In this document: positions 3,043 through 40,528 of the stretch, in pieces | Position numbering within the stretch: position 1 is the first letter of the stretch | How the letters are laid out: each line of letters starts with the position of its first letter | Origin: an uncultured Actinomycetes bacterium | Lineage (GTDB): Bacteria > Actinomycetota > Thermoleophilia > Miltoncostaeales > Miltoncostaeaceae | Direction: 5' to 3' | Length of the DNA: 40,528 nucleotides | NCBI GenBank assembly: GCA_937871165.1 | Contig: CALMXK010000056.1 | Span: 1-40,528, forward strand | Notes under the pieces: generated by a model | Databases searched by the model: none | Told to the model about the DNA's origin: nothing | The model's input: the letters and a program-made list of their open reading frames with translations, nothing else | Program-made: the position numbers and the translations under genes

Positions 3043-6000
3043 GTTGGCGTTCGCTACCCGCGGTGGTCGGGTCCGATGGAGGATGGGACGCGATGGAGCA
3101 GGCTGTCCTCGCGCGCTGGCGTGAGGACCAGGTCTTCGCGAAGAGTCTCGAGCTGCGCAAGGACGGCGAGCCGTTCGTGTTCTACGAGGGGCCGCCGACG
3201 GCAAACGGGCGGCCCGGAAGTCACCACGTGCTCTCGCGCGTGTTCAAGGACATCTTCCCGCGCTTCCAGACGATGCAGGGGCGCTTCGTGGAGCGTCGCG
3301 CGGGCTGGGACTGTCACGGCCTGCCGGTGGAGATCGAGGTCGAAAAGCAACTCGGCATCAGCGGCAAGCCCGAGATCGAAGCGTTCGGCATCGCGGAGTT
3401 CAACGCGCGGTGTCGCGAGTCGGTCAGCGGCTACCTGGACGAGTGGGAGCGCCTGACCGAGCGGATCGGCTTCTGGGTGGACATGTCCACGGCCTATCGC
3501 ACGATGGACGCCACGTACGTCGAGTCGGTGTGGTGGAGTCTCGCCGCGTTGTGGGACAAGGGTCTGATCTACGAGGCCGACAAGGTGGTGCCGTACTGCC
3601 CGCGTTGCGGCACGGCGCTGTCGAGCCATGAGGTGGCGCAGGGCTACAAGGATGTCGACGACCCGTCGATCTTCGTGCGCTTCCCGTTGACGGACGACCC
3701 GACGCTCAGCCTGCTGGTGTGGACCACGACGCCCTGGACGCTGCCGAGCAACCAGGCCGCCGCGATCCATCCGAACGTGACCTACGCCGAGGTCGACAAC
3801 GGCGGCGATCGCCTGATCCTCGCGAAAGCACTGGTGGACAAGGTGTTCGGCGAGGGCACCCCCGTGGTCCGCGAGATCGCCGCGTCCGACCTGGTCGGTC
3901 GCACCTACGACCCCCCGTTCCCGTTCGTCCCCGGTGCGCACCGCATCGTGTCCGCCGACTTCGTGACAACGGAGGACGGCACCGGCATCGTGCACATCGC
4001 CCCGGCATTCGGCGAGGACGACATGGCCGTCGGTCGCGCAAACGACCTGCCGCTCACCAACCCGGTGGACAAGCAGGGTCTGTTCACCGAACAGATCACC
4101 GGCTTCGCGGGTCGGTTCGTGAAGGACGCCGACCGCGACCTGATCGCGGATCTCAACAGTCGCGGACGCCTCTTTCGCGAGCTGACCTACACCCACACCT
4201 ATCCGCACTGCTGGCGCTGCGCCACGCCGCTGCTCTACTACGCCAAGCCGTCCTGGTACATCCGCACCACCGACGTGCGCGAGCGCATGATGGAGCTCAA
4301 CCAGACGGTCGGGTGGCATCCGTCCCGGGTGCGCGACGGGCGGTTCGGTCGCTGGCTCGAGGACAACGTGGACTGGGCGATCTCGCGGGAGCGCTACTGG
4401 GGCACACCCCTGCCGCTGTGGCGCTGCGACGAGTGTTCGCAGATCACGGCGGTCGGCGGGTTCGACGACCTGCGTGCCAAGGCGGTCAATCCTCCGGGCG
4501 AGGACTTCGATCCGCACCGGCCCTACGTCGACGACGTGGTCGTGCGGTGCGCGTGCGGTGGCGAGGCCCACCGTGTGCCCGAAGTGATCGACGTCTGGTA
4601 CGACAGCGGCGCCATGCCGTTCGCCCAGCAGCACTACCCGTTCTCCGGTGAGCAGGCGCTCGAGGGCAAGTTTCCGGCCGACTACATCTGCGAGGCGCAG
4701 GACCAGACGCGCGGGTGGTTCTACTCGCTGCACGCGGAGGCCACGATGCTGTTCGACAGCGTCGCCTACCGCAACGTCGTGTGTCTGGGTCACATCCTCG
4801 ACACCGACGGCCAGAAGATGAGCAAGACCAAGGGCAACGTCATCGAGCCGTGGACGGTGCTCGACAAGTACGGGGCGGACCCGTTTCGCTGGTACCTGCT
4901 CACGGCGCAGCAGGCCGGTGAGTCGTTTCGCTTCAGTCTGGACGCCATCGAAGAGGCCATGCGCCGCTTCCTGCTCACCGTGTGGAACACCTACTCGTTC
5001 CTCGTCACCTACGCGTCGCTTCCCGACGGGTGGTCGCCCGAGATGGGCGCGCCCGAGGTGGCCGACCGTCCGGCGATCGACCAGTGGGCGCTTGCGCGCT
5101 TGGACGAGACGGTGGACGAGGTGACGGCGCAGCTCGCGGACTATGACGCTGCGACCGCCGGTCGCGCCATCGCGAACTTCGTGGACGAGCTCTCCAACTG
5201 GTACGTGCGCACGTGTCGTCGCCGCTTTTGGCGTTCTGACGACCGTGCCGATCAGCAGGCCGCCTTCGCCACCTTGCACGAGTGCCTTGCCACCACGGCC
5301 AAGTTGCTTGCACCGTTTTGTCCGTTCCTGGCGGACGAGATGTACGTCAACCTCGTGGCGGCCCATGACTCGGCCGCCCCGTCGAGTGTGCACCTGGTCG
5401 ACTGGCCCACCTCGGGCGGACGCGCCGACCCGCAGCTGGTGCACGCGATGGACGAGGTTCGTCGCGCGGTCTCACTCGGCCGCTCCGCACGGAAGGAAGC
5501 GAAGATCCGTGTACGCCAGCCGCTCGCCGAGGCGGTGGTCGCATGCGCTCCGGCCGACGCAGCCGCGATGGACGCCCACACCGGCCTGATCGCCGACGAG
5601 TTGAACGTCAAGTCGGTGCGCTTCGTGACCGACCCGGCCGATCTGCTGCACGTCACCATCAAGCCGAACTACCGCACGCTCGGGCCGCGCTTCGGCAAGT
5701 CCATGCCCGACGTTGCGACAGCGTTCGGTGCCTTGGACGGGCCGACGGTCGTCAACGCACTCGACGGCGGCGACTCGGTGTCCATCACCGTCGCCGGTGA
5801 GTCGCACGCCATCGGCGGCGACGATGTGCTGCGCGAAGTGCATCCGTCGGAGGGCTACGTGGTTGCCAACGACGGGCCGGTTGCCGTGGGTCTCGCCACC
5901 GAGCTGAACGACGATCTGCGGTTGGAAGGCCTCGCCCGCGAAGTCATCCACGCGGTGCAGGCCGCGCGCAAGGCCGCGGGACTTCGGGTTGAGGAGCACA

Positions 6001-31283: not shown

Positions 31284-34200
31284 ATGGCCGCCATCAGGCA
31301 GTCGAGGAACACTGCTGGAAGCACTTCCGTTCGCGAGACCTCGCGCACGCCCAAGCGGGCGTCGCGAGCTCGCGCCCGGCTTCGCATCGCAGGGCGCCTT
31401 GTGGGAGTCTCGGCAATCGTCGGTGTGCTCGTGGCGCCGGTCGTGCTGGAGGCGAACCCTGCCAGTGGGCCGGGGCGGTTCTCCACCACCAACACCGGTA
31501 ACCTCAACAGCACGGTGCCGAGCGGAACATGCCGCGCGCGCGTGTCCGCCACGGGCGGTGGTGGTGGTTCGCCGAACTATGGCGCATCCGGTGGACGCGG
31601 TGGCGCCAACGCGACGATCAACGCAACGTTCGACGTCCTGCCGCTCCAACCATGGGCGGCCAGCGTCGGTGGCGGCGGCGCGTCGAACACGACCGGCGGC
31701 ATCAACGGCGGTGGCAGTTCGAGCGCGGTCTTCGGACATCAAGGTGGCGGTGGCGGTGGCCGAACCATTGTCACGATCGGCGGACAGCAGGTTGTCATCG
31801 CCGGTGGTGGTGGCGGTGGTGGAGCAAACCATCAGTCGAGCCCGATCGGCAACGGCGGCAACGCGGGCATCCTGTCTGCCGCCGGTGTCGGCGTCGGCGC
31901 GAACGGCACCAACGGTCAGGACAGTCCGACCAGTGTCACGGTCGGTGGTGGCCGTGGTGGCCAGGCGGCCGCGGGTGGCGCGGGCAGAGTGAACACGGCC
32001 AGCGGCGCGATCAGCGGTTCGGCTGGTGGCGGCATTGGAACGGGCAATGGCGGCAACGCCGGCCCCGACCCGAACTGGGACGGCGGCGGCGGCGGTGGCG
32101 CCGGCTACACCGGTGGCGGTGGCGGCGCGGCCACTTCCGCAACCGCGTCGTTCTCAGTCACCGGTGGTGGTGGCGGTGGTGGCTCAAGCTACGTCGCGTC
32201 GCAGTCGCCGACGGTCACAGCGACGGCTCCCACTGCGATCAGCGGATCCAACGGTACGATTGCGGGGGCCGGCAACCCAGGCGCCAACGGTCAGGTGAGC
32301 CTCGACTGGGTGCCCTGTCTGTACGACTTGACCACGACCAAGACGGTGTCCCCGAGCCCCGTGATCGCAGGCCAGACGGCGACATGGACGCTGACGGTCA
32401 CCAACAATGGTCCCGATGCGATGACCCTCGGCGACACGGTCACCATCGGCGACACCCTTCCCGGCCCTGGCACCCAGGTCGTGTCCGTGACGGCCTCGGG
32501 CGGAAGCAACGCCAACCTCACGCGCGGCGCGATCACCTGTTCGGGCATCACCGTCGGATCGCCGATGCCGGCATCCACCGATTGTTCGCGTGCATACTCC
32601 GCGGTCGCCGGCACCCCGGGCTCACCGAGCGGTGGCGTCCGCGGCATTGATTCCGGTGAGTCCATCACCATCGTCTACACCCAGGCGATTCCGGCATCGA
32701 CCGCGCCGACCACCTACACAAACACGGCAACGGTCCAGGATCGTCCGTCGATGACCGGCACGACGGACCTGGTCGGCACCATCGTGACCGACACGGCCGT
32801 GCGTGCCCTGCCCGTCCAGTCGAGCGCGGACCTGCGCATCACCAAGACCGCGAGCGCCCCGACCGTCACTGCAAGTGGCGCACTCACCTACACCCTGCTG
32901 ATCGAGAACCTCGGCATCTCGGACGCGTCAAGCGTGACCGTGACCGATCCGTTGCCCGCCGGCAGCACGTTCACGTCCGCATCGGCGGGTTGTACCGACT
33001 CGAGCGGAACCGTCACATGTGCAGTCGGGACGCTCGCCGCGGGCACCTCGACGACGCGCACGATCACGATCGCCGCGCCATCCACGGCGGGCACCATTTC
33101 CAACACGGCCACCGTCAGCTCCTCGAGCACGGATCCCGTCTCGACGAACAACTCCTCCACCGTCGCCACCAACGTCGTCGCGGACGCCGACCTGGGTGTC
33201 ACCAAGACGGTCAACACGGCGACTCCGCCAGTCAACGGGAACGTGACCTTCACGGTGACCGCGACCAACAGCGGGCCGCAGGCCGCGACGGGCGTCGTGG
33301 TCGACGACCTGCTTCCGGCGGGCCTGACGTTCGTGTCGGCGACGCCGTCGGTCGGCACCTACAACTCAGGCACCGGCGTGTGGACGATCGGCAATCTGGC
33401 GAATACCGCAAGCGCCACGCTCACGATCACCGCCACGGCCACTTCAGCCGCTTCGGTGACGAACACGGCGACGATCAGCTCTCCGAACGTCGCCGACGCC
33501 AACGCGACAAACAACACCGCTTCGGCGTCCGTCAACGCCACCGACGCCGATCTGGATGTCACCAAAACGGTCGACGATGCCAGCCCGAATCTGAACGGCA
33601 ACGTGACGTACACGATCTCCGTGCACAACAACGGTGCGGACACCGCCACGGGAGTGACGGTCACTGATCTGCTCCCGTCGGGGCTGACCTACGTCAGCGA
33701 CAACGGAAGCGGCGCGTACGTGTCGAGCACCGGCGTGTGGTCTGCGGGGTCCCTCACCAACGGACAGACGAAGACGCTGCAGATCACCGCACAGGTGACC
33801 ACGGCCAATCCCGTCACGAACACAGCGACCATCACCGGATCGTCGCAGTTCGATCCGACGAGTTCGAACAACACCAGTAGCGTCGCCGTGGATGCGCGCA
33901 CCGCCAATCTGGGTGTGACGAAGTCGGTGAGTAGTGCGTCGCCGGATGTGAACGGGAATGTGACGTACACGGTGACGGTGTCCAATAGTGGTCCGGATGG
34001 TGCGACGGGTGTGGTGGTCAATGACCTGTTGCCGTCGGGTGCGACGTATGTGTCGGATAACGGCAGTGGCGCGTATGTCAGCTCGACGGGTGTGTGGACG
34101 GTTGGGGCGCTTGCGAATGGTGCGTCGCGGTCGTTGCAGATCGTTGCGACGATCACGTCGCACACGCTTGTCACGAATACGGCGACGGTGACGTCGACGA

Positions 34201-37200
34201 GTACGGACACGGTGTCGGGCAACAACTCGGCGAGTGTGGGTGTGAATGCGAAGGATGCGAACCTCGCGATCACGAAGTCGGTGAACACCGCGTCGCCGGA
34301 TCTGAATGGCAATGTGACGTACACGCTGACGGTGACCAACAACGGTCCGGATACTGCGGCTGCGGTGTCGGTCAATGATCTGCTGCCGTCGGGGTTGACG
34401 TATGTGTCGGACAACGGTTCGGGTGCGTATGTGAGCTCGACGGGTGTGTGGACGATTGGGTCGATGACGAGTGGTGCGTCGACGTCGTTGCAGATCACTG
34501 CGACGGTGACGACCACAAACCCGGTGACGAACACCGCAACGGTGGCGAGTGCCACCACATTCGATCCGGCGACCTCGAACAACAGCGCGTCGGTTGCAGT
34601 GGATGCGCGCGCCGCCGACCTTGCCGTCACGAAGTCGGTCAACAACGCCACACCCGACGTCAACGGCAACGTGGTGTTCAGCGTGACGGTGACCAACAAC
34701 GGTCCCGACGCCGCGACCGGTGTGTCGGTCAGCGACCTGCTTCCGAGCGGGCTCACCTACGTCAGCGACAACGGGAGCGGCGCGTACGTGTCGAGCACCG
34801 GCGTCTGGACGATCGGCGCACTCGCGAACGGCGCATCTCGGACCCTGCAGATCACCGCCACGGTGACCGTCAACACCGCCGTCACGAACACGGCGACCGT
34901 CACCTCCACGAGCACCGATCCGACGAGCGCCAACAACAGCGCAAGCGTCACCGTCGACGCCAAGGAAGCCGACGTCCGCATCACCAAGTCGGTCAGTGAC
35001 ACCACCCCGAACCTCGGGGACACCGTCACCTACACGCTGACCGTCACCAACAACGGACCGTCAGCGGCCACCAACGTGGTCGTGCATGACCTGTTGCCGT
35101 CGGGTGTGACGTTCTTGAGCGCGTCGCCCGCCATCAGCGGCACGGACGTGCTCGGCCAGTACTGGAATGTCGGCTCCCTCGCAAACGGCGCGTCCCAGAC
35201 GATCACGGTGTCTGCACGGGTGGACAGCGTGAGCGCGCAGACAAATACCGCGGTTGTGTCGGCGGACCAGTTCGACACGAACACGGCCAACAACACCGCG
35301 CAGGCGACGACGAGCGCCAAGCAGGCGAACCTTGCCGTCACGAAGACCGTGGACAACGCGACGCCGCAGGTGGGCGGCAACGTCACCTACACCGTCACGG
35401 TCACCAACAACGGTCCGGACAGCGCGAGCGCAGTGGTCGTCAATGACGTGCTGCCTTCGGGGCTGACCTACGTCAGCGACGATGGTGCAGGCGCGTATGT
35501 CAGCTCGACCGGTGTGTGGACGATCGGGACGCTCGCCAATGGTGCGACGCGGACGTTGCACATCACTGCGACGGCAACCGGCCCGTCGGCGGTCACGAAC
35601 ACGGCGACGGTGAGCAGCGGCACCTACGACCCGGCGGCCGGCAACAACACGGCGTCGGTTGTGGTGAACGCGAAGGACGCGGACCTGGATGTGACCAAGA
35701 CGGTCAGCGACTCCAGCCCGAACCTGAACGCCAACGTCACCTACACCATCTCCGTGCACAACAACGGACCCGACACCGCAGCCGGCGTCGCAGTCACCGA
35801 CCTGCTTCCGAGTGGGTTGACCTACGTATCGGACAACGGCAGCGGCGCATATGTGTCAAGTACCGGCGTGTGGACGGCCGGATCCCTCACCAGCGGACAA
35901 ACCAAGACCCTGACCATCACCGCGACGGTCACGAGTACGGCCCCGGTGACCAACACCGCCAGCATCACCGCCTCGTCGGTGTTCGACCCGACGGCCTCGA
36001 ACAACACGAGCTCAGTGGCCGTTGATGCGCGCGCGGCGAACCTCGCGATGACGAAGACGGTGAGCAATGCGACGCCAGATGTGAATGGCAACGTCACCTA
36101 CACGCTGACGGTCGCGAACAATGGTCCTGACGCCGCGGCCGGCGTTGCCGTGAATGACCTGCTGCCCTCGGGCGCCACGTATGTGAGCGACAACGGCGCG
36201 GGTGCGTACGTGTCGAGCACCGGCGTGTGGACGATCGGCGGCATGGCCAACGGTGCGTCCACCTCGCTCCAGATCACGGCGAAGATCACGACGCAAACGG
36301 CGATCACCAACACGGCGAGCGTCACCTCAACCAGCACCGACACCGTGTCGGGCAACAACACGGCGAGCGTCGTCGTGAATGCGAAGGATGCGAACCTCGC
36401 GATCACCAAGACCGTGAACAATGCGTCACCGGATCTGAACGGCAATGTCACGTACACGCTGACGGTGACGAACAATGGTCCGGACACCGCTGCGAGCGTG
36501 ACGGCGAATGACCTGCTGCCGTCGGGTCTCACGTACGTGAGCGACAACGGCTCCGGTGCATACGTCAGCTCAACGGGAGTGTGGACGATCGGTTCCCTTG
36601 CGAGTGGCGCGTCGACGTCGTTGCAGATCACTGCGACGGTGACGACGACGAGCCCCGTCACGAACACAGCGACGGTCGCGAGCGCAACCACCTACGATCC
36701 GACGAGTTCGAACAACACCAGTAGCGTCGCCGTGGATGCGCGCACCGCCAATCTGGGTGTGACGAAGTCGGTGAGTAGTGCGTCGCCGGATGTGAACGGG
36801 AATGTGACGTACACGGTGACGGTGTCCAATAGTGGTCCGGATGGTGCGACGGGTGTGGTGGTCAATGACCTGTTGCCGTCGGGTGCGACGTATGTGTCGG
36901 ATAACGGCAGTGGCGCGTATGTCAGCTCGACGGGTGTGTGGACGGTTGGGGCGCTTGCGAATGGTGCGTCGCGGTCGTTGCAGATCGTTGCGACGATCAC
37001 GTCGCACACGCTTGTCACGAATACGGCGACGGTGACGTCGACGAGTACGGACACGGTGTCGGGCAACAACTCGGCGAGTGTGGGTGTGAATGCGAAGGAT
37101 GCGAACCTGGCGATCACGAAGTCGGTGAATACCGCGTCGCCGGATCTGAATGGCAATGTGACGTACACGCTGACGGTGACCAACAACGGTCCGGACACCG

Positions 37201-40200
37201 CTGCGAGTGTGACGGCGAATGACCTGCTGCCGAGCGGCCTCACCTACGTGAGCGACAACGGGTCCGGTGCGTATGTGAGCTCAACGGGTGTGTGGACGAT
37301 CGGCTCGCTGACCAGCGGCGCATCCACCGCGCTGCAGATCACGGCGACGGTCACCACCACGAGCCCGGTGACGAACACCGCGACGGTGGCGAGTGCGACG
37401 ACCTTCGACCCGACCACCTCGAACAACAGCGCGTCGGTCGCAGTGGATGCGCGCGCCGCCGACCTGGCCGTCACGAAGTCGGTCAACAACGCCACACCGG
37501 ACGTCAACGGCAACGTCACCTACACGATCACCGTTTTGAACAACGGTCCCGACGCCGCCACGGGCGTCACGGTGAACGACCTGCTGCCGACTGGCGCCAT
37601 CTATGTGAGCGACACGGGGGCCGGCGCGTACGTCAGCTCGACCGGTGTGTGGACGATCGGCTCCGTTGCGAACGGGGCGTCGACGTCGTTGCAGATCACC
37701 GCGACGATCACGACGCCGAACGCCGTCACGAACACTGCGACCGTCACCTCGACGAGTACGGACACGGAGTCGGGCAACGACTCCGCCTCGGTCGGTGTGA
37801 ATGCGAAGGATGCGGATCTTGAGGTTGCGAAGTCGGTGAGTGACGCGTCGGCGAATGTCGGCGACAACGTCACCTACACGGTGACGGTCACGAACAATGG
37901 TCCGGATTCGGCGACGGGTATTGCGGTCACCGACCAGCTGCCGGCCGGTGTCACGTATGTCAGCGATGACGGGTCGGGTGCGTACGTCAGCTCGACGGGT
38001 GTGTGGAGTGTCGGGACGCTTGCGAGTGGTGCGAGCGCGACCCTGCACATTGTGGCGAGTGTGGATGTGAATACGGCGGTGACGAACACCGCGTCGATCA
38101 CGGCGTCGTCGGTGTTCGATCCCACGACCTCCAACAACACCGACACCGCGACCGTCGACGCACCCGAAGCCGACGTCCGCGTCACCAAGTCGGTCGATGA
38201 TTCCACGCCGAACCTCGGCGACACCGTCACCTACACGCTCACCGTCAGCAACAACGGTCCATGGAGCGCGACGAACGTCGTGGTGCATGACCTGCTGCCG
38301 TCGGGTGTGACGTTCCTGAGCGCGTCGCCCGCCATCAGCGGCACGGACGTGCTCGGCCAGTACTGGAATGTCGGCACCCTCGCGAGCGGTGCGTCCCAGA
38401 CGATCACGGTGTCGGCGCGGGTCGACAGTTTGAGCGCGCAGACGAACACGGCGGTGGTGTCGGCGGACCAGTTCGACACGAACACGGCCAACAACACCGC
38501 GCAGGCGACAACCAGCGCCAAGCAAGCGAGCCTGGCGGTCACGAAGACCGTCGACACCGCGACCCCGCAGGTCGGCGCCAACGTGGTGTTTACGGTCACT
38601 GTGACCAACAGCGGCCCGGATGCGGCGAACTCGGTTGTGGTGAACGATCTGCTGCCGGCGGGACTCACCTACGTCAGTGATGACGTGAGCGGCGCCTACG
38701 TCAGCTCCACCGGTGTGTGGACGATCGGCGCCCTGGCCAACGGCGCGTCACGGACGTTGCACATCACGGCCACCGTGACGAGTCCGAGTGCGGTGACGAA
38801 CACTGCGACGGTGAGCAGCGGCACCTACGATCCGACGGCGGGCAACAACACGGCGTCTGTGAGTGTGAACGCCAAGGACGCGGACCTGGACGTCACCAAG
38901 ACGATCAGCGACGCCAGCCCGAACCTGAACGACACCGTGACCTACACGATCTCGGTGCACAACAACGGTCCGGACGACACGACCGGCGTCGCTGTCACAG
39001 ACCTGCTGCCGACGGGCTTGACCTACGTCTCGGACACCGGCTCGGGCTCCTACGCCAGCGCCACCGGCGTGTGGACGGTCGGCGGGCTCACCAGCGGCCA
39101 GACCAAGACCGTGCAGATCACGGCCACGGTCACCAGCACCGCGGTTGTGACCAACACCGCAACCATCACTGCGTCGTCGCTCTTCGATCCGACGAGCTCG
39201 AACAACACCAGTTCAGTCGCTGTCGATGCGCGTGCCGCCGACCTGGCGATCAGCAAGACGGTCAACAACCCGACGCCGGACGTGAACGGCAACGTCACCT
39301 ACACCGTCACCGTCACGAACAACGGACCGGACGCCGCCACCGGCGTTGCGGTGAGCGACCTGCTGCCGAGTGGCCTCACATACGTGAGCGACACCGGTGC
39401 CGGCGCGTACGTCAGCTCGACCGGCGTGTGGACGATCGGCTCGATGACCAGCGGCGCGTCCACCTCGCTGCAGATCACCGCCACCGTCACCACACACAGT
39501 CTGGTCACCAACACCGCGACCATCACCTCAACGAGCACCGACACCAATTCGGGCAACGACACCGCAAGTGTCGACGTGAATGCGAAGGATGCGAACCTGG
39601 CGATCACCAAGACGGTGAGCAACGCGACGCCGAATCTGAACGGCAACGTCACCTACACGCTGACGGTCACCAACAACGGTCCGGACACTGCGGCGAGTGT
39701 GACGGCGAATGACCTGCTGCCGAGCGGCCTCACCTACGTGAGCGACACCGGTGCGGGCGCGTATGTGTCGAGCACGGGCGTGTGGACGATCGGAGCGATG
39801 ACCAGCGGCACGTCGACATCACTGCAGATCACGGCCAAGGTCACCACCACGAGCCCCGTCACGAACACCGCGACGGTGTCGAGCGCCACCACATTCGATC
39901 CGGCGAGTGCCGACAACACGGCATCGGTCGTCGTCGACGCGCGCGCTTCGGATCTTGCGATCACCAAGACGGTGAACACCGCAACGCCGGATGTGGACGG
40001 CAACGTCGTCTACACCCTGACCGTGACCAACAACGGTCCGGACGCGGCGACCGGCGTCACGGTCAACGATCTCCTCCCGTCCGGCGCCACCTATGTGAGC
40101 GATACCGGCGCGGGCACCTACTTCTCGGCAACCGGCGTGTGGACGATCGGCTCACTTGCGAACGGCGCCTCGACGTCGCTCCAAGTCACGGCGAAGATCA

Positions 40201-40528
40201 CCACCCATACCGTCGTCACAAACTCCGCAGCAGTCACGTCGACGAGTACGGACCCGGTGTCGGGCAACAACGCCGCAAGCGTCGACGTGAATGCGAAGGA
40301 TGCGAACCTGGCGATCACGAAGTCGGTGAACACCGCGTCACCGGATCTGAACGGCAATGTGACGTACACGCTGACGGTGACCAACAACGGTCCGGACACC
40401 GCTGCGAGCGTGACGGCGAATGACCTGCTGCCGAGCGGCCTCACCTACGTGAGCGACAACGGTTCGGGTGCGTATGTGAGCTCGACGGGTGTGTGGACGA
40501 TCGGCTCGCTGACCAGCGGCGCATCCAC
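31284..40528 (+). CDS. Giant exported DUF11-repeat surface protein, 3' end beyond contig
   Basis: One frame is open from the ATG at 31284 to the contig end (3081 full codons) with no stop, so a caller that requires a stop codon would miss it. An in-frame TGA at 31251 bounds the start, and GAGAGGG lies 1 nt before the ATG, which is tight. Residues 1-38 are basic, and 39-56 form a hydrophobic signal-like segment (LVGVSAIVGVLVAPVVLEA). A glycine-rich region covers roughly 90-330. From residue 348 on there are at least 23 immunoglobulin-like DUF11 (TIGR01451 'conserved repeat') domains. Each begins like ADLxVTKTV and contains NNGPD, DLLPSGLTYVSD, STGVWTIG, VTNTATV and a closing SNN. Cysteines occur only before the third domain. 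Such proteins are usually cell-surface stalks or adhesins. Any anchor lies in the missing C terminus. Confidence 0.93.
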   Translation, partial: MAAIRQSRNTAGSTSVRETSRTPKRASRARARLRIAGRLVGVSAIVGVLVAPVVLEANPASGPGRFSTTNTGNLNSTVPSGTCRARVSATGGGGGSPNYGASGGRGGANATINATFDVLPLQPWAASVGGGGASNTTGGINGGGSSSAVFGHQGGGGGGRTIVTIGGQQVVIAGGGGGGGANHQSSPIGNGGNAGILSAAGVGVGANGTNGQDSPTSVTVGGGRGGQAAAGGAGRVNTASGAISGSAGGGIGTGNGGNAGPDPNWDGGGGGGAGYTGGGGGAATSATASFSVTGGGGGGGSSYVASQSPTVTATAPTAISGSNGTIAGAGNPGANGQVSLDWVPCLYDLTTTKTVSPSPVIAGQTATWTLTVTNNGPDAMTLGDTVTIGDTLPGPGTQVVSVTASGGSNANLTRGAITCSGITVGSPMPASTDCSRAYSAVAGTPGSPSGGVRGIDSGESITIVYTQAIPASTAPTTYTNTATVQDRPSMTGTTDLVGTIVTDTAVRALPVQSSADLRITKTASAPTVTASGALTYTLLIENLGISDASSVTVTDPLPAGSTFTSASAGCTDSSGTVTCAVGTLAAGTSTTRTITIAAPSTAGTISNTATVSSSSTDPVSTNNSSTVATNVVADADLGVTKTVNTATPPVNGNVTFTVTATNSGPQAATGVVVDDLLPAGLTFVSATPSVGTYNSGTGVWTIGNLANTASATLTITATATSAASVTNTATISSPNVADANATNNTASASVNATDADLDVTKTVDDASPNLNGNVTYTISVHNNGADTATGVTVTDLLPSGLTYVSDNGSGAYVSSTGVWSAGSLTNGQTKTLQITAQVTTANPVTNTATITGSSQFDPTSSNNTSSVAVDARTANLGVTKSVSSASPDVNGNVTYTVTVSNSGPDGATGVVVNDLLPSGATYVSDNGSGAYVSSTGVWTVGALANGASRSLQIVATITSHTLVTNTATVTSTSTDTVSGNNSASVGVNAKDANLAITKSVNTASPDLNGNVTYTLTVTNNGPDTAAAVSVNDLLPSGLTYVSDNGSGAYVSSTGVWTIGSMTSGASTSLQITATVTTTNPVTNTATVASATTFDPATSNNSASVAVDARAADLAVTKSVNNATPDVNGNVVFSVTVTNNGPDAATGVSVSDLLPSGLTYVSDNGSGAYVSSTGVWTIGALANGASRTLQITATVTVNTAVTNTATVTSTSTDPTSANNSASVTVDAKEADVRITKSVSDTTPNLGDTVTYTLTVTNNGPSAATNVVVHDLLPSGVTFLSASPAISGTDVLGQYWNVGSLANGASQTITVSARVDSVSAQTNTAVVSADQFDTNTANNTAQATTSAKQANLAVTKTVDNATPQVGGNVTYTVTVTNNGPDSASAVVVNDVLPSGLTYVSDDGAGAYVSSTGVWTIGTLANGATRTLHITATATGPSAVTNTATVSSGTYDPAAGNNTASVVVNAKDADLDVTKTVSDSSPNLNANVTYTISVHNNGPDTAAGVAVTDLLPSGLTYVSDNGSGAYVSSTGVWTAGSLTSGQTKTLTITATVTSTAPVTNTASITASSVFDPTASNNTSSVAVDARAANLAMTKTVSNATPDVNGNVTYTLTVANNGPDAAAGVAVNDLLPSGATYVSDNGAGAYVSSTGVWTIGGMANGASTSLQITAKITTQTAITNTASVTSTSTDTVSGNNTASVVVNAKDANLAITKTVNNASPDLNGNVTYTLTVTNNGPDTAASVTANDLLPSGLTYVSDNGSGAYVSSTGVWTIGSLASGASTSLQITATVTTTSPVTNTATVASATTYDPTSSNNTSSVAVDARTANLGVTKSVSSASPDVNGNVTYTVTVSNSGPDGATGVVVNDLLPSGATYVSDNGSGAYVSSTGVWTVGALANGASRSLQIVATITSHTLVTNTATVTSTSTDTVSGNNSASVGVNAKDANLAITKSVNTASPDLNGNVTYTLTVTNNGPDTAASVTANDLLPSGLTYVSDNGSGAYVSSTGVWTIGSLTSGASTALQITATVTTTSPVTNTATVASATTFDPTTSNNSASVAVDARAADLAVTKSVNNATPDVNGNVTYTITVLNNGPDAATGVTVNDLLPTGAIYVSDTGAGAYVSSTGVWTIGSVANGASTSLQITATITTPNAVTNTATVTSTSTDTESGNDSASVGVNAKDADLEVAKSVSDASANVGDNVTYTVTVTNNGPDSATGIAVTDQLPAGVTYVSDDGSGAYVSSTGVWSVGTLASGASATLHIVASVDVNTAVTNTASITASSVFDPTTSNNTDTATVDAPEADVRVTKSVDDSTPNLGDTVTYTLTVSNNGPWSATNVVVHDLLPSGVTFLSASPAISGTDVLGQYWNVGTLASGASQTITVSARVDSLSAQTNTAVVSADQFDTNTANNTAQATTSAKQASLAVTKTVDTATPQVGANVVFTVTVTNSGPDAANSVVVNDLLPAGLTYVSDDVSGAYVSSTGVWTIGALANGASRTLHITATVTSPSAVTNTATVSSGTYDPTAGNNTASVSVNAKDADLDVTKTISDASPNLNDTVTYTISVHNNGPDDTTGVAVTDLLPTGLTYVSDTGSGSYASATGVWTVGGLTSGQTKTVQITATVTSTAVVTNTATITASSLFDPTSSNNTSSVAVDARAADLAISKTVNNPTPDVNGNVTYTVTVTNNGPDAATGVAVSDLLPSGLTYVSDTGAGAYVSSTGVWTIGSMTSGASTSLQITATVTTHSLVTNTATITSTSTDTNSGNDTASVDVNAKDANLAITKTVSNATPNLNGNVTYTLTVTNNGPDTAASVTANDLLPSGLTYVSDTGAGAYVSSTGVWTIGAMTSGTSTSLQITAKVTTTSPVTNTATVSSATTFDPASADNTASVVVDARASDLAITKTVNTATPDVDGNVVYTLTVTNNGPDAATGVTVNDLLPSGATYVSDTGAGTYFSATGVWTIGSLANGASTSLQVTAKITTHTVVTNSAAVTSTSTDPVSGNNAASVDVNAKDANLAITKSVNTASPDLNGNVTYTLTVTNNGPDTAASVTANDLLPSGLTYVSDNGSGAYVSSTGVWTIGSLTSGAS
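31551..32265 (+). repeat. Glycine-rich low-complexity segment
   Basis: Within the giant protein, runs of Gly-Gly-Gly with Asn, Ala and Ser (for example GGGGGG near 31749 and 31800) alternate with short beta-prone stretches. The coding DNA is runs of GGT/GGC. It precedes the first DUF11 domain and resembles other glycine-rich surface-protein segments. No function is assigned. Confidence 0.8.
33851..34264 (+). repeat. 414-nt exact direct repeat, copy 1
   Basis: Identical base for base to 36695-37108 (offset 2844 nt). It spans all of domain 5 plus the start of domain 6. The flanking bases differ at both ends. Its codons favour GTG, TCG, ACG and GCG and forms such as AGT, unlike the C-ending codons of domains 4 and 7. 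Confidence 0.95.
34968..40528 (+). repeat. Nine-domain super-repeat, period 3201 nt
   Basis: Domains 8 to 14 recur as domains 17 to 23, each at an offset of exactly 3201 nt (34968 to 38169, 35325 to 38526, and so on to 37101 and 40302). The markers are a divergent domain with ADVR and VLGQYWNVG (8 and 17), a TSAKQA-linked domain (9 and 18) and an ADLDVTKT domain with SVHNNG (10 and 19). The second copy is cut off by the contig end. Confidence 0.88.
36695..37108 (+). repeat. 414-nt exact direct repeat, copy 2
   Basis: Covers domain 13 and the start of domain 14. Identity to copy 1 ends at 37109 (G against C), after which similarity stays high for about 100 nt. Confidence 0.95.

Follow-up and report, generated by a model that had tools for sequence, protein, structure and literature searches.

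A giant CLIPPER-domain fibre protein and a class-wide VTG ending that hints at an undescribed way of handling surface proteins

Judged from their sequences, the probable C-terminal part of a giant DUF11 protein and its relatives across one bacterial class (the grouping assigned by the genome tool) end in a DUF11-type cap followed by a short, predicted flexible tail that usually closes on [P/G]xVTG and carries no membrane helix. The protein that led to this ending is encoded at the 3' end of a 40,528-bp stretch of DNA, here called the window, which is the entire contig C56, so that position 40528 is a true contig end. The reading that we favour, if by a modest degree, is that of a giant secreted fibre consisting of a head, a self-cross-linked stalk, a C-terminal part encoded on a second contig of the same genome, C7, and a VTG end read by a factor other than a sortase.

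Results

The giant gene and its DUF11 array

The giant gene (31284..40528, + strand) is represented by its N-terminal 3081 codons, an open reading frame whose translation begins with an ATG at 31284 and runs stop-free to 40526 at the contig end. The first-pass annotation had described a giant DUF11 surface protein with a signal-like N terminus and a glycine-rich region, a description supported by the 3081-residue translation with its 23 DUF11 domains, in which both N-terminal features are present. By inspection, the signal-peptide-like N terminus has its hydrophobic core at residues 39–55 (31398..31448, + strand) behind a long Arg-rich n-region and, together with the 23 repeats, gives the combination of signal peptide and repeat stalk by which fibrillar adhesins are recognized. 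The genes scanned upstream encode subunits of respiratory complex I, in an operon, and a TauE/SafE permease; the top PDB match of NuoM is 8e9g, a mycobacterial complex I. These upstream genes, the part of the window examined, include no sortase or secretion gene, in agreement with the earlier statement that none neighbours the locus, but one sortase is encoded elsewhere in the genome, by a single gene on contig C99 away from the window.

Profile scans with Pfam DUF11 (PF01345; score 2417 bits, cut-off 24.6) and NCBIfam TIGR01451 each gave 23 stretches, matching the earlier count of at least 23 domains. Domain 1 is diverged and domain 23 is cut by the contig end. Domain parsing and alignment set domains 1 and 2 (32322..33185, + strand) apart as a diverged pair with four of the six cysteines of the open frame. 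All six (residues 83, 345, 419, 434, 570 and 579) lie before domain 3, which begins at residue 635, as had been noted in the first pass. Profile matches, alignment and a two-domain model define domains 3–23 (33186..40528, + strand) as a homogeneous stalk with a mean identity of 64% and a predicted Lys7/Asp41/Asn92 triad. Its units are 118–120 residues long, mostly 118 and 119 in alternation, with a periodicity far above chance. Repeat comparison revealed no difference between domain 5 and domain 13 (100% identity), which lie inside an exact 414-bp duplication with an eight-domain offset (copies at 33851..34264 and 36695..37108, both + strand), a sign of recent growth of the array. Further repeats of 53–65 bp occur at offsets of seven, eight and nine domains.

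Predicted cross-linking of the stalk domains

DUF11 was renamed CLIPPER in 2025, when a crystal structure (9IFR) showing a bond between Lys and Asn, with an Asp as the presumed catalyst, was reported and gains in heat and protease resistance were shown (Costa et al., PMC12617251). A profile of the stalk domains retrieved 9IFR, with Lys7 aligned to Lys715 and the Asn of a TNTA motif aligned to Asn806; by our own count, the aligned Asp sits one residue after the paper's number, 748. The Lys of the TK motif is present in 23 of 23 window domains and in 36 of 36 when those of C7 are added. Over the same two contigs, all 36 domains have Asp or Glu at the isopeptide position, and the TNTA Asn was found in each of the 35 domains long enough to show it. 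The two N columns of the SNN motif are variable, holding N in 28 and 24 of the 36 domains and otherwise mostly D. The first-pass annotation had held the TK Lys and the SNN Asn to be kept in every domain and had speculated that they might form an isopeptide bond. The conservation of the Lys stood, and the bond was right in kind, by homology to CLIPPER; but such a bond had already been published, and the SNN Asn was not the correct partner, being ruled out by the alignment that places Asn806 on TNTA. This alignment, together with the invariance of TNTA against the variability of SNN, points to Lys7 and Asn92 of TNTA, approximately 85 residues apart, as the predicted bonding pair.

Structure prediction of two adjacent domains with AlphaFold2, a check proposed in the first pass, yielded a confident all-beta model (pLDDT 96, pTM 0.80). 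The cap domain also gave a confident all-beta model, whose best PDB match was 9IFR (TM 0.75 by target), as expected of a CnaA-like beta-sandwich fold. The top fold matches of the domain pair were integrins, taken as generic similarity between tandem beta-sandwiches, and designed armadillo proteins, which a short tryptophan motif had brought to the top of the PDB profile search, were dropped after this motif was masked. The CLIPPER adhesin B9T28_05395 of Acinetobacter silvestris, the source of 9IFR, shares the CnaA-like domain, the aligned Lys and Asn and the tandem stalk. The protein described here differs from it in having many more, nearly identical copies and a different head, and in lacking both the CTTC disulfide motif and the OmpA anchor.

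The glycine-rich head

The glycine-rich head covers approximately residues 63–345 (31470..32318, + strand) and was delimited through a match to Gly_rich_2 (PF21722) below the family cut-off (12 bits against 24.3) and through comparison with relatives. It shares its order of glycine-rich motifs with the ALK/LTK glycine-rich domain (PF12810, ALK_LTK_GRD) and with Gly_rich_2, but in a profile scan it reached the cut-off of no family, these two included, whereas clear matches occur in giant proteins of relatives. Two genomes of the same taxonomic family, G041 and G035, contain giant open frames (5918 and 3012 residues) whose glycine-rich domains match PF12810 at 6e-18 and 1e-11, respectively; in the 5918-residue frame of G041 (locus L118, 1–17754) domains of this type are repeated. 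The head aligns in motif order with the glycine-rich domains of both frames, yet pairwise BLASTP between them was not significant, and the head had no match in a search of public named genomes. The ALK/LTK-type matches of the relatives and the shared motif order make a binding tip for adhesion a reasonable guess, though no more than that given the BLASTP result and a head that falls below every family cut-off.

Contig C7 as the probable C-terminal part

The open frame of contig C7 (locus L030) comprises a partial DUF11 domain, 13 full DUF11 domains and a DUF11-type cap, with a natural stop at 5431. The C56 array is left open at the 3' end alone and the C7 array at the 5' end alone, for which a single gene is the simplest reading. 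In long matches C7 resembles the window array at 53–57%, against 31–41% for other DUF11 loci, and no further array in the genome comes this close. The same odd domain type recurs on both contigs, with domain B3 of C7 having its closest relatives in domains A8 and A17 (60%). No overlap between C56 and C7 was found, and the two share no 27-mer. That C56 and C7 belong to one gene, with the C-terminal part on C7, appears probable; the whole protein would then have at least approximately 4870 residues and at least 36 DUF11 domains, plus whatever lies in the gap between the contigs.

Two observations were made around the ends of this frame. At bases 1–69 of C7 the assembler left in an entire Illumina Nextera i5 adapter, index included, which translates into a false open reading frame start, MCIRDS. 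Directly 3' of the frame lies a gene (L030, 5428–6684) whose product carries GIKWG repeats and, at its C terminus, a FIMAH domain, and a second GIKWG-type repeat protein (L079, 1–1308) adjoins the only sortase gene of the genome.

Both the length of the stalk and the join of the contigs have to be weighed against other readings. An exact 414-bp duplication is a hazard for short-read assembly, and together with the 53–65 bp repeats it could have misled an assembler into wrongly expanding or collapsing the array. A stalk length of such artificial origin is nonetheless very improbable, as the copies differ throughout outside the exact block and the frame runs for 3081 codons free of frameshifts and stops. 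A fairly unlikely reading, if less so than an assembly artefact, is that C7 closes some other DUF11 gene and that the C terminus of the window gene was not assembled. The C7 domains resemble one another at 46% and the C56 domains at 47%, compared with the 64% within domains 3–23, and the adapter hides the true 5' neighbour of C7. Against this, a genome that is 94% complete offers one array open at the 3' end and one open at the 5' end, and the start of a second array was not found in it.

The C terminus of C7, behind the cap, reads KKRVQRSAVTG-stop. The first-pass annotation had proposed that the C-terminal anchor be sought; a probable C terminus was located on C7, but it holds no classical anchor, only VTG, with no LPXTG signal, membrane segment or known anchor detected by inspection of the C terminus and family scan. 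Position -5 of this end has neither of the commonest residues, P or G. In public named genomes, a search with the C7 end returned distant DUF11 proteins only.

The VTG ending across the class

The class-wide comparison used 91 distinct open reading frames, from all loci fetched, in which the cap lies at most 25 residues from the stop; scoring was confined to the top candidates of each genome, and the counts are therefore lower bounds. An exact VTG end was present in 72 of these 91, a fraction somewhat favoured because part of the retrieval used a profile containing the tag (an earlier family search had used the C7 protein itself), and a Gly end in 84. A cap-domain profile built without the last eight residues still retrieves the VTG ending. 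Gly, Ala or Pro predominate at position -4 and Pro or Gly at position -5, and all three VTG codons vary synonymously. None of the 91 has a hydrophobic segment in its last 60 residues, and none a terminal membrane helix. Among background open reading frames, three of 859 end in VTG.

The ending appears confined to the class in the material compared. It was absent from the 21 open reading frames from outside the class, several of which carry a membrane helix together with a signal resembling LPXTG or LANTG, and in a phylum-wide search the listed matches from other classes all stop short of the final position of the profile, that of the tag. The source genome itself encodes seven proteins ending in VTG or VAG. 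A variant of the tag was observed on its contig C149 (L038, 3572–9077, minus strand), where three adjoining DUF11 open reading frames end in PSPAG or PSPTG. Searching for VTG as a DNA pattern was abandoned as a finder because it was too noisy, most matches not being gene ends. No NCBIfam or Pfam model covers VTG in the proteins scanned, and nothing relevant on a VTG tag was found in the open-licence literature.

In the cap model, pLDDT exceeds 90 in most blocks to approximately residue 130 and falls to 69 in a coil tail. The linker between cap and tag is variable in sequence and is predicted, with falling confidence, to be exposed coil.

Discussion

PEP-CTERM and GlyGly-CTERM tags carry a membrane helix and a basic end, and the VTG ending has neither. 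It has in common with them a short homologous C-terminal region borne by many otherwise different surface proteins (PMC1569441, PMC13393428). LPXTG and LAXTG signals likewise stand at the C-terminal end of a stalk, and xPVTG, xAVTG and xGVTG resemble their core motif, but VTG comes without a membrane helix, a basic tail or any residue after the Gly, and occurs in genomes lacking PF04203. AbpA of oral streptococci has a short signal without a hydrophobic segment, LPKTSAVK, that is processed by SrtB (PMC4974636). It resembles VTG in being short, C-terminal and free of a hydrophobic segment and differs in requiring residues past the cut site as well as a sortase, and in being limited to a single adhesin family of oral streptococci.

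The likeness to LPXTG and LAXTG and the precedent of AbpA, a signal that works without a membrane helix, make a sortase the obvious candidate reader of the tag, and the source genome does encode one. VTG would then be a shortened sortase signal, cut between T and G, much as SrtB processes LPKTSAVK. We regard this as improbable. A PF04203 sortase was detected in 11 of the 42 genomes of the taxonomic family, the source genome included, whereas 19 tagged genomes of the family (one of them with the tag only as VIG) have none, among them the near-closed genomes G018 (one contig) and G019 (three contigs). With the ending present in these relatives too, the tag cannot in general be read by a PF04203 sortase; sortase anchoring was dropped as a general explanation, and a sortase is probably beside the point. 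Neither C7 nor any of the 91 class tails combines an LPXTG motif with a membrane helix and a basic tail, and nothing follows the Gly of VTG, while AbpA requires its AVK tail. (In relatives that do have the sortase domain, at loci L147–L156, it lies mostly in open frames of approximately 750–1090 residues, which suggests a possible fusion with a large N-terminal part.) It is less improbable, if still unlikely, that VTG is no sorting signal at all and serves cap stability, C-terminal protection, as a protease mark, or fibre-fibre assembly. The tag was found behind one type of cap, and the seven long surface-like open reading frames ending in GVTG in six class genomes are all DUF11-like, other hits to the pattern looking like chance; but the variable linker and the predicted exposed coil fit recognition better than packing. 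A similarly low probability is given to the reading of the whole protein as a sheath or S-layer-like structural component and not an adhesin. No adhesive domain scored above its family cut-off, as such a component would have it, but a single gene of giant size that encodes head, stalk and cap agrees with the layout of fibrillar adhesins described by Costa et al. (PMC12617251).

The conservation and position of the tag suggest a sorting role. Tentatively, and with somewhat less than even confidence, we propose that [P/G]xVTG marks surface proteins of the class for an undescribed, sortase-independent route of sorting or attachment, in which the proteins present a free C-terminal VTG and no membrane anchor and of which the giant protein would be among the largest clients.

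In the proposed picture, the window gene would cover a giant secreted fibre protein from its N terminus through its central region. Each CLIPPER domain is expected to cross-link itself, giving a rod resistant to proteases and force that would carry the glycine-rich head away from the cell. The C-terminal part, on C7, would consist of a cap and a short VTG tail, and the reader of this end may be an extracytoplasmic factor distinct from PF04203 sortases, which would sort the protein to, or fix it at, the cell surface.

Giant cross-linked stalks are a known kind of structure, and the isopeptide bond has been published; taken by itself, the protein therefore adds a large new member to that kind. 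The new part is its C-terminal ending, a short, helix-free tag found class-wide on surface proteins, in many genomes without a matching sortase. The VTG ending hints at an undescribed way of handling surface proteins in the class, and the pattern of the tag implies a factor not yet named. Were the tag a sorting signal, one would expect a secreted or membrane-bound enzyme or receptor, which a comparison of tagged with untagged genomes could find, and the presence or deletion of VTG would provide a simple experimental handle.
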